Source of the DNA: Streptomyces bobili
Lineage (GTDB): Bacteria > Actinomycetota > Actinomycetes > Streptomycetales > Streptomycetaceae
DNA: 51,723 nucleotides
Assembly: GCF_002154575.1 (NCBI RefSeq)
Contig: NZ_MUBA01000024.1
Span: forward strand, 1 to 51,723
Direction of reading: 5' to 3'
Part shown: positions 26,744-44,087 of the stretch, piece after piece
Layout of the letters: every line of letters starts with the position of its first letter
How positions within the stretch are numbered: the stretch's first letter is position 1
Made by a program: the position numbers and the translations under genes
Notes under the pieces: generated by a model
The model's input: the letters and a program-made list of their open reading frames with translations, nothing else
Told to the model about the DNA's origin: nothing
Databases searched by the model: none

Positions 26744-27117
26744 TCAGTGCCTGAGCAGCCACAACACCCGGTCCCACGACACCAGGTGGTACACGACCAG
26801 CACACCGGCGAGCAGCACGCCCTGTGTGCGAGATCCCGCCGCGTACAACGCCGTCGCACCGCCGAAGAACACTGCCAGCTCCAGCAGGAGCCTCAGTGGG
26901 CCAGGCGTCGCGATCACCGTCCCTCCGGACCGGGAGGCGTCTGCGGGGGTGGCGAACACTCCCCACAGCACGGCCACGGGAACGGCGACGACGGCGACGT
27001 ACCGCAGGGGGCGGACGGCGTGACCCACGACCAGATCCCGAAGCAGACAAGAGCCGCCGGCTCCAACGCGAACCTCACACCGAGAGCCAATGGGTGAAAG
27101 CCGTACCCGGACGACAT
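26744..27117 (-). pseudogene. YrdB/DUF2568-family membrane protein gene with a single-base frameshift
   Basis: Read from ATG 27117, which has GGAAGG upstream, one frame gives H-P-L-A-L-G-V-R-F-A-L-E-P-A-A-L-V-C-F-G-I-W-S-W and then turns into Pro/Ser-rich nonsense. From about 27027 the next frame gives G-H-A-V-R-P-L-R-Y-V, V-L-W-G-V-F-A-T-P, S-R-S-G-G, L-L-L-E-L-A-V-F-F-G-G-A-T-A-L-Y and Y-H-L-V-S-W-D-R-V-L-W-L-L. Joined, these make one complete YrdB-type protein of about 124 residues with four membrane helices. Adding one G in the GGG at 27026-27024 restores the frame (S-W-G-H-A). Either a real inactivating deletion or a sequencing error in a short homopolymer. Confidence 0.85.
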
Positions 27118-35240: not shown

Positions 35241-35374
35241 GATGGTCTACTGCTCCCGATCAAGCCGCCTGCCGCACCTGTCCCCCGCATCCTACGACCG
35301 AGATCGCCACGGTCGGCTGTGGGAGGATCGGCAACACCCATCAGTACAACGTCGCACCCACAAGGAGCGTGCCC

Positions 35375-36730
35375 ATGTCGTCGAATCCGGTCGCCGAGAC
35401 CGTCGCCTCGCTGATGCCCACGGCGAAGGCGGAGCTCACCGAACTGGTGGCGTTCAAGTCGGTGGCGGACTTCGACCAGTTCCCACGCACCGAGAGCGAG
35501 GCCGCGGCGAACTGGATAGTCGCCGCCCTGCGCACCGAGGGCTTCGAGGACGTGGCCCTCCTCGACACGCCGGACGGCACGCAGTCGGTGTACGGCTTCC
35601 TGCCGGGGCCCGAGGGCGCGAAAACGGTTCTGCTGTACGCGCACTACGACGTGCAGCCGCCGCTGGACGAGGCCGGCTGGGTCACGCCGCCCTTCGAGCT
35701 GACCGAGCGCGACGGCCGCTGGTTCGGGCGGGGCACCGCCGACTGCAAGGGCGGCTTCATCATGCACCTGCTGGCCCTGCGCGCCCTGAAGGCGAACGGC
35801 GGGGTGCCGGTCCATGTGAAGGTGATCGTCGAGGGCTCGGAGGAGCAGGGCACGGGCGGTTTGGAGCGGTACGCCGAGGAACACCCGGAACTGCTCGCCG
35901 CCGACACCATCGTGATCGGCGACGCGGGCAACTTCCGGGTCGGTCTGCCCACCGTCACCTCCACGCTGCGCGGCATGACCATGATGCGGGTGCGGATCGA
36001 CACCCTGGCGGGCAATCTGCACTCCGGCCAGTTCGGCGGCGCCGCCCCCGACGCGCTGGGTGCGCTGATCCGCGTACTGGACTCGCTGCGCGCGGAGGAC
36101 GGCTCGACGACGGTGGACGGCCTGACCGACGCCCCGGCGTGGGAGGGGCTCCAGTACGACGAGGAGCAGTTCCGCAAGGACGCCAAGGTCCTCGACGGCG
36201 TCACCCTGATCGGTTCCGGCACGGTCGCCGACCGGATCTGGGCCCGTCCCGCGGTCACCGTCCTCGGCATCGACTGCCCGCCGGTCGTGGGCGCGACCCC
36301 GTCGGTGCAGTCGAGTGCCCGTGCGCTGATCAGCCTGCGGGTGCCGCCGGGTGTGGACGCGGCGGAGGCGACGAAGCTGCTCGAAGCTCACCTGGAGGCG
36401 CACACGCCCTGGGGGGCGCGGGTCCAGACCGAGCAGATCGGTCAGGGCCAGCCGTTCAGCGCCGACACCACCAGCCCGGCGTACGCGGCGATGGCCGAGG
36501 CGATGGCGGTGGCCTATCCCGGCCAGGAGATGCAGTACGCCGGCCAGGGCGGCTCCATCCCGCTGTGCAACACCCTCGCGGCGCTCTACCCGCGCGCCGA
36601 GATCCTCCTGATCGGCCTGAGCGAGCCGGAGGCCCAGATCCACGCGGTCAACGAGAGCGTCTCCCCGGAGGAACTGGAGCGCCTTTCGGTGGCGGAGGCG
36701 CTGTTCCTGCGCACGTACGCGGCGAGCTGA
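35375..36730 (+). CDS. M20-family dipeptidase
   Basis: 451 residues from ATG 35375, with AAGGAG seven bases upstream; GTG 35369 is too close to that site. Zinc ligands and catalytic residues: Y-A-H-Y-D-V-Q-P, G-R-G-T-A-D-C-K-G-G, E-G-S-E-E-Q-G-T-G-G, and the later G-D-A-G-N region; the lid domain has H-S-G-Q-F-G-G. This is the dipeptidase/CNDP-like branch of M20. It hydrolyses dipeptides or N-acyl amino acids in the cytoplasm, with no signal peptide. It is followed by a strong hairpin. Confidence 0.92.
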   Translation: MSSNPVAETVASLMPTAKAELTELVAFKSVADFDQFPRTESEAAANWIVAALRTEGFEDVALLDTPDGTQSVYGFLPGPEGAKTVLLYAHYDVQPPLDEAGWVTPPFELTERDGRWFGRGTADCKGGFIMHLLALRALKANGGVPVHVKVIVEGSEEQGTGGLERYAEEHPELLAADTIVIGDAGNFRVGLPTVTSTLRGMTMMRVRIDTLAGNLHSGQFGGAAPDALGALIRVLDSLRAEDGSTTVDGLTDAPAWEGLQYDEEQFRKDAKVLDGVTLIGSGTVADRIWARPAVTVLGIDCPPVVGATPSVQSSARALISLRVPPGVDAAEATKLLEAHLEAHTPWGARVQTEQIGQGQPFSADTTSPAYAAMAEAMAVAYPGQEMQYAGQGGSIPLCNTLAALYPRAEILLIGLSEPEAQIHAVNESVSPEELERLSVAEALFLRTYAAS

Positions 36731-36795: not shown

Positions 36796-37511
36796 ATGGA
36801 CGTCATCGCGCTCCTCCCCCGGCTGCACCTGCTGCGTTTCCCGGTCGGCCAGGCCTATCTCTGGCACGACGCCGACGAGTTGACGCTCGTCGACGCCGGG
36901 CCACCCGGCTCCGGCCACGCGATCGCCGACGCGGTCACCGCCCTGGGGCACGATCCGGCGGCCGTAAGGCGGGTGGTGCTCACCCACTTCCACGAGGACC
37001 ACGCGGGCGGGGCGGCCGAACTGGCGGCCCTGACCGGGGCGCAGGTGCTGGCGCACGCCGCGGACGCGGCGGTACTGCGCCGCGAGGTCCCGGCTCCGGA
37101 ACCGGTGTTGGAGGAGTGGGAGCGCCCGTTGCACGCCGCCGCGTTACGGCACCTGCCCGTGCGTGAGGTCGAACCTCCCGCACGGATCAGGGGGTTGGCC
37201 GACGGCGATGTCCTCGCCTTCGGCGGCGGAGCGCGCGTGGTCCACGTCCCCGGTCATACGGACGGCAGCATCGCCCTCCATCTGCCGGCCCCGGCGTGCT
37301 GTTCACGGGGGACACCGTGGCCGCCTCCCCCGTCGACGGGTCGGTGATGCCGGGCGTGTTCAACCTGGACCGGAACCTGACCGTCACCGCGCTCCACCGG
37401 CTCGCCGCACTCGACGCGGACGTGGCCTGCTTCGGCCACGGCGCCCCACTGACCCGGCGGGCGTCCGCCGCACTGCGCGAAGCGGCTGACAGCCACCGCC
37501 CCACGCCCTGA
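36796..37511 (+). pseudogene. Metallo-beta-lactamase-fold hydrolase gene with a single-base frameshift
   Basis: From ATG 36796 the frame reads L-H-L-L-R-F-P-V-G-Q-A-Y-L-W, T-L-V-D-A-G-P-P-G, the zinc motif T-H-F-H-E-D-H-A-G-G and H-V-P-G-H-T-D-G-S, then at about 37290 it slips into C-C-S-R-G-T-P-W and stops at 37347. The next frame from that point gives G-V-L-F-T-G-D-T-V-A, F-N-L-D-R-N-L and C-F-G-H-G-A-P-L and ends at 37511. Together they form one complete protein of about 238 residues, including the bridging Asp and last His. One extra C in the CCCC run at 37289-37292 would join them. A true pseudogene or a sequencing error. A TACGGT six bases before the ATG suggests a leaderless transcript. 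Confidence 0.88.
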
Positions 37512-37536: not shown

Positions 37537-37576
37537 CGCCTCACCGCCTCACCGCCTCACCGCCTCACCGCCTCAG
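37537..37576. repeat. 8-bp tandem repeat, five copies, over the P-loop/NUDIX stop codon
   Basis: CGCCTCAC four times and then CGCCTCAG, head to tail. The last unit contains the minus-strand TGA stop of the gene at 37573. It fills most of the gap between convergent genes. Confidence 0.9.
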
Positions 37577-38616
37577 CCGAGGGGAACCCCGGCCTCCAGA
37601 TAGAGCGCGGCGCCCCGCTCACGCGCCCGCAGTGCCCAGCGCAGCCGCTCGTAGCGGACCGGGGGCAGCAGGGCGGCGGCCTCCTCCTCGGTGACGAAGC
37701 GCCAGCCGCGCAGTTCGGGGCCGGGCAGGAGCAGGCCCTTGGCCGCCGCGGAGTCGAGCCGGCCACCGTCGAAGAGCAGGCGCAGGCCGCCGTATCCGGG
37801 AGGCATCGGCCGCTCCCAGTCGACGACGAGCAGCCGGGGTACGTCGTCCAGCCGGACGCCGGTCTCCTCCTCGACCTCGCGCATGCCCGCGCGCGCGGGC
37901 GCCTCGCCCCGCTCCACGACCCCGCCGGGGAACTCCCAGCCGGGCTTGTAGGTCGGGTCGACGAGCAGGACGCGGTCCCGCTCGTCGAAGAGCAGCACCC
38001 CGGCGGCCACCGTCTCGGCGGTCGGCTCGGGGGTCTGCACGATGTCGCAGGCGCCCACCGACCCGCTGCCGACGGCCTCCGCGATGCGCACGGCGGTCTG
38101 GTACGGCGTGAGGTCGCTCGAGTCGACCGGGTGGGCGTCCGCGGTGAGCCAGCCGGCGAGGGCGGCGCGGTACGGCTCGATGTGGTCGTACGACCACTGC
38201 CGCACCCGTATCTCGGCGTCGGGGAGGTCGGGCGGGAGTTCCCGCTCGGCTATTCGCTGGCGCAGGATCGTTTCCGCCGGGGCCAGCAGCACATGCTGGA
38301 CGGCGATCCGGCGGGCGGCGAGGCCACCGAAGATCTCGTCGCGGTACTCCTGGCGCAGCAGGGTCATGGGGACGACGAGGGTGCCGCCCAGCTCCCCGAG
38401 GAGCGCCGCCGCGGTGTCGATCACGAGCCGGCGCCAGATCGGCAGGTCCTGGAAGTCGCCGACCTCGGCGAGTCGTTTCGGCGGCAGCAGCTGCGGGAGC
38501 GCCGCCCCGACGACTTCGGGGTCGAAGAGCGTGCTGTTCGGGATCAGGTCGATCAGTTCCCGTGCGGTGGTCGTCTTTCCCGCACCGAACGCGCCGTTGA
38601 TCCAGACGACGGTCAC
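37573..38616 (-). CDS. P-loop kinase/ATPase - NUDIX hydrolase fusion
   Basis: 347 residues from GTG 38616, preceded by AGAGGGGGAA. Residues 1 to about 180 form a small P-loop kinase-like domain: Walker A GAFGAGKT (8-15), then P-M-T-L-L-R and a helical lid with L-R-Q-R-I-A-E-R-E; it resembles AAA_33/shikimate- or chloramphenicol-phosphotransferase-like proteins. Residues about 205-345 are a NUDIX domain with the box G-G-V-V-E-R-G-E-A-P-A-R-A-G, M-R-E-V-E-E-E-T-G-V at 231-256, all catalytic Glu present. The kinase-like half and the nucleoside-diphosphate hydrolase half may act on the same small molecule. No ortholog function known to me. Confidence 0.87.
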   Translation of the reverse strand: MTVVWINGAFGAGKTTTARELIDLIPNSTLFDPEVVGAALPQLLPPKRLAEVGDFQDLPIWRRLVIDTAAALLGELGGTLVVPMTLLRQEYRDEIFGGLAARRIAVQHVLLAPAETILRQRIAERELPPDLPDAEIRVRQWSYDHIEPYRAALAGWLTADAHPVDSSDLTPYQTAVRIAEAVGSGSVGACDIVQTPEPTAETVAAGVLLFDERDRVLLVDPTYKPGWEFPGGVVERGEAPARAGMREVEEETGVRLDDVPRLLVVDWERPMPPGYGGLRLLFDGGRLDSAAAKGLLLPGPELRGWRFVTEEEAAALLPPVRYERLRWALRARERGAALYLEAGVPLG

Positions 38617-38698
38617 GTTTCCCCCTCTGCTGCCGGCCCCTGTGGCCTGCCCGCTCCACCCTGCCACGGAAACCGGCTCCCGTTGAGGGCGCGCGAAC

Positions 38699-43914: not shown

Positions 43915-44087
43915 TCAACAATCCGTTGAATGAAGCTAACCGTGGGCTTCTCGTGGGTCAACACCCTGTCCACGCCCTGGGCCCTCGCGCCTTCCCTTCC
44001 CTCTCTCCGGCCCCTGCCGCCGCGAGGCCCCCTTCCGTTCGCACGTTCGTACAATCACCCTGGCGTACGAGGGTGAAAGGGGGCCAC

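Follow-up and report, generated by a model that had tools for sequence, protein, structure and literature searches.

The window analyzed here, i.e., the whole 51,723-nucleotide stretch (bases 1-51723 of contig NZ_MUBA01000024.1, from an 8.06-Mb draft of Streptomyces bobili in 946 contigs), contains a gene for a metallo-beta-lactamase (MBL)-fold hydrolase that is split over two reading frames. The first frame runs from an ATG at 36796 to a stop at 37347 and carries the motifs LVDAG, THFHEDH and PGHTDGS; GVLFTGDT and the late histidine (CFGHG) sit in another frame, which ends at a stop at 37511. This is the partition of motifs that a sequence-only reading of the stretch had described. The gene thus consists of a native N-terminal part (residues 1-164, 36796..37287), a lesion interval at about 37286..37293, where both a comparison with intact relatives and a gene finder place a shortfall of one base, an out-of-frame tail of the first frame that ends in its stop (37288..37347), and a C-terminal part in the shifted frame (37293..37511), all on the plus strand. 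It is flanked upstream by an open frame for an M20-family dipeptidase (35369..36730, plus strand; DNA identity of 96%, 95% and 91% in three relatives) and downstream by an open frame for an AAA_33 and NUDIX protein (37573..38667, minus strand). Counting also loci cut by contig ends, the dipeptidase gene lies directly upstream of the MBL gene in 64 of 80 related loci, and a NUDIX protein lies downstream of it in 48.

The N-terminal part is 90% identical to its counterpart in Streptomyces phaeoluteigriseus over 164 residues, and the C-terminal part matches that same closest relative with 92% identity over 72 residues (E of 2e-40 in a search of that single locus), so the match of the second part is not due to chance. 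In a profile search, the first frame scored 67.3 bits against PF00753 (residues 19-164) and covered profile positions 7-140 of 196 only, while an intact relative scored 98.8 bits over positions 6-196; both scores exceed the gathering cut-off of 22.7, placing the gene in the MBL-fold superfamily. The solved structure nearest to the intact relative by sequence is 2zo4, an MBL family protein (E of 2.8e-14). The best NCBIfam match by sequence was the subclass B3 metallo-beta-lactamase family (NF033105), with which the gene shares the HxHxDH motif, but the window part reached 69.3 bits and the intact relative 64.2 against a cut-off of 240, and the window gene is therefore not a member; none of these results indicates activity on beta-lactams. 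It resembles instead the PF00753 (Lactamase_B) hydrolases that stand beside the M20 dipeptidase in Streptomyces, among them the intact orthologues L039 and L041, which carry the same motifs; unlike these, the window copy is divided between two frames. It is an ordinary MBL gene, with no sign of a new mechanism.

The nearest relatives identified, S. phaeoluteigriseus DSM 41896 (L039) and Streptomyces sp. Tue 6430 (L041), with DNA identities of 91% and 89%, respectively, both carry the gene uninterrupted, and their alignments with the window show a single one-base gap across it, at the junction. When the window was aligned to its counterparts in DSM 41896, Tue 6430 and Streptomyces sp. BK239 (covering 46, 35 and 33 kb of it, respectively), it was one base short at the junction against all three. 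The spacing from ...HLP to GVLF was tabulated for 113 rows with both gene parts, two of which are the window itself: it is 5 nt in the window and 6 nt in 107 of the 111 non-window loci, counts that are partly non-independent, as some loci may be from the same species. The four exceptions are L103, in which the aligned second part begins further on, in frame, and three loci that shift frame at other places (L013, L044 and L105). With the relatives intact and the spacing this uniform, the proposal that a one-base shortfall breaks the MBL gene is borne out: by sequence comparison, the frame is broken where its orthologues are intact, as would be expected of a pseudogene by frameshift. The 31-base lesion context, allowing at most 3 mismatches, was absent from the other 391 of the 392 genomes of the genus searched, a search that a more-substituted copy would escape. 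Judged by these comparisons, the lesion is strain-specific, a singleton shared by no relative examined.

These results bear on the possibility that the two halves are expressed as one protein through programmed -1 or +1 ribosomal frameshifting at a conserved slip site or through transcriptional slippage. Both halves of the gene are well conserved in sequence, in keeping with such a mechanism, but the relatives have one frame with the 6-nt spacing and no conserved slip site was seen. Since the lesion is common to no relative examined, recoding is unsupported and, within the reach of the comparison, contradicted, and we regard it as highly improbable.

The shift had also been placed at a CCCC run at 37289-37292, as the loss of a base from a short G/C homopolymer. 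The run is present and falls within the lesion interval. Slippage in CCCC is not supported, however, because at the corresponding position neither of the two closest relatives has a C run. Of 83 loci in forward orientation with the 6-nt spacing, 4 do have five C in a row near the junction, but these runs surround the Leu-Pro codons that come before it and do not coincide with the window's run; on these grounds slippage in the run was rejected. The short run at the junction could also suggest a phase-variable gene, switched by slipped-strand mispairing. However, the run read directly from the window is only 4 long, while the GeneTack survey required repeats of this kind to be at least 7 nt long (PMC3711429), and it has no equivalent in the two closest relatives; phase variation therefore seems very unlikely. 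Hairpin-driven template switching at a GC-rich inverted repeat around the lesion was likewise tried and rejected, as the predicted fold of 45 bases was no better than shuffles (z of +0.89).

A different kind of explanation is an assembly error, as had been suspected: the strain's gene would be intact, and one base of a GC-rich stretch would have been lost from the draft, either as an isolated consensus error or as one of many in an error-rich assembly. Frame breaks were counted with a purpose-written HMM gene finder that permits frameshifts, trained on stretches of two genus genomes in few contigs (G101 and G009); these double as the training set, so the counts favor them, and neighboring events share one gain value. 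To measure sensitivity, 100 one-base losses were simulated within genes, no closer than 150 bases to their ends; three settings of the finder recovered 74, 84 and 89 of them, and the setting that found 84 was used for the event counts. With long gene overlaps allowed, the junction break was not reported as a frameshift, and tightened settings were used. Unaided, the finder called one event in the 52-kb window, at 37287, with a gain of at least 10.

In the rest of the window's draft (G000), such strong events (gain of at least 10) numbered 4 in 748 kb, or 0.5 per 100 kb, a lower bound given that the finder missed the break in a YrdB gene described below, whose N-terminal part is short. All four lie near N runs, a cluster of three in L156 at distances of roughly 8 to 435 bases and a single event in L237 at roughly 10 bases; the window contains no N. 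Elsewhere, there was 1 strong event in 200 kb of G101 (0.5 per 100 kb), there were 7 in 200 kb of G009 (3.5 per 100 kb), and none in 56 kb of G191. The draft is thus level with G101 and below G009 and the two sister drafts, which argues against an error-rich assembly as the general cause; no richness in frame breaks was seen in its sampled part. As for the sister drafts themselves, the sampled contigs of S. phaeoluteigriseus DSM 41896 (G189; L132-L134 and L181-L190) held 28 strong breaks in 257 kb, about 11 per 100 kb, and those of Streptomyces sp. Tue 6430 (G190; L135-L137 and L191-L200) held 91 in 252 kb, about 36 per 100 kb, in both cases mostly one base short.

Turning to the direction of the breaks, all 7 G000 events with a gain of at least 5 (window included, the four beside N set aside) are one base short, against 4 of 10 in G101 and G009, which could faintly hint at a small undercall bias. 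Six of these events lie outside the window; they have gains of 5 to 10 and no adjacent N, and five (L227 left out) were compared with three relatives. Two had no usable counterpart; the event in L206 (G000 contig 31, near 8710), set among short C runs, is confirmed as a one-base shortfall relative to G189; that in L142 falls at a place with several indel differences in the relatives; and for L149 the alignments to relatives showed no one-base gap at the event. Within the window, a one-base shortfall against all three relatives was also found near 38640, upstream of the start of the AAA/NUDIX domain, and near 43946, between genes, both outside genes according to the finder. Counting isolated one-base gaps against G189, G190 and G191, the junction included, the window is shorter at 13, 8 and 5 places and longer at 14, 21 and 4, respectively; the other isolated gaps are either not common to all covering relatives or fall in stretches aligned to fewer than three of them.

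A second frame break had been claimed in the YrdB/DUF2568 gene (about 26744-27117, minus strand), some 10 kb from the MBL gene, and it too was recovered. The gene is split between two frames with a junction near 27000-27020: the DUF2568 match (26798-27010, minus strand; profile positions 26-91 of 92) is in one frame and the start with the N-terminal part is in another, the latter being, in our reading, the N-terminus of DUF2568. Most of this stretch is absent from the three relatives compared, so it looks like an accessory gene. One could imagine a lineage that is just starting to lose accessory enzymes, with the MBL hydrolase and YrdB/DUF2568 both recently broken by one-base losses, though we consider this unlikely. 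In favor of an isolated consensus error in the MBL gene count this second break of the same sign on the same contig, the division of the draft into 946 contigs, and a lesion context that no other of the genus genomes searched contains. Against such an error stand the scarcity of strong breaks in the sampled 748 kb, all of them near N, the lack of any N in the window and the position of the lesion outside any long homopolymer.

We then considered how well the gene is retained elsewhere, using 114 related loci that were fetched by their likeness to it and therefore give no measure of the frequency of its absence. The gene reads intact in 108, is broken at other places in 5 and is cut off in 1: a first set of 80 loci comprised 77 intact and 3 broken copies (L044, L105 and L116), and a second set of 34 comprised 31 intact, 2 broken (L013 and L026) and 1 that runs off its contig (L034). 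The broken copies in other lineages indicate that the MBL gene can be lost. In L013, L044 and L105 the frame shifts at differing places, and some of these shifts may be sequencing errors too. In L116, from S. coeruleorubidus (a record titled complete genome), the gene lacks an internal stretch that would separate the parts with THFHEDH and CFGH. The N-terminal part of L026, also broken, is closely similar to that of L116.

Relaxed selection in the lineage, also raised at the outset, was not visible at this gene, though the gene has been lost in other lineages. Codon by codon over both parts, with the junction left out, branch-specific synonymous and non-synonymous changes stood at 14:7 in the window, 15:9 in L039 and 23:13 in L041, so the window branch showed no sign of relaxation since the break, a comparison that would have little power for a recent break. 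This resemblance to the intact sisters suggests that the lesion is either very recent or a consensus error, which would leave the purifying-selection pattern unchanged; it does not fit a long-dead gene.

In a survey that covered frame transitions across 1106 prokaryote genomes, singletons are taken to be sequencing errors or recent indel mutations, and recoding and phase variation are sought among clustered transitions, not singletons (PMC3711429). The window's case is like those singletons, being a frame transition that is absent from homologues and whose two sides have a single protein as their homologue, and no difference from them was found in the part of the survey drawn on here. When a singleton has been validated by BLASTp, the authors' expectation is an error and not a genuine indel (PMC3711429), which again favors a consensus error.

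Weighing these lines, we favor a strain-specific one-base frameshift in the MBL-fold hydrolase gene that would be a genuine and very recent null mutation, with the base truly missing in the living strain. For it count the finder's call at 37287, the intact close relatives, the low density of breaks in the sampled draft and the broken copies in other lineages; against it count the lack of relaxed selection, the singleton nature of the lesion and the possible undercall bias. On balance, we give such a mutation a slight edge over a consensus error, itself a serious contender that falls somewhat short of probable.

Under the null mutation, translation from 36796 would yield a product of 183 residues, 164 native and 19 missense, ending at the stop at 37347 and lacking the FTGD aspartate and the last histidine. 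In MBL-fold enzymes, these two residues help hold the metals. With both lost, the frameshifted product would be expected to lack activity. The second part has a start of its own, a GTG at 37296, that opens a frame of 71 residues; by itself, such a fragment is unlikely to fold or function.

In annotations, one frameshifted gene should be recorded here rather than two proteins, and beta-lactam resistance should not be inferred from it. The many frame breaks indicated for the two public sister drafts make these a poor basis for counting pseudogenes unless genes are verified one by one. Taken together with a strain-specific and very recent null mutation, which we hold to be marginally probable, the results would be best explained by an MBL-fold hydrolase gene that is conserved among these Streptomyces but dispensable.
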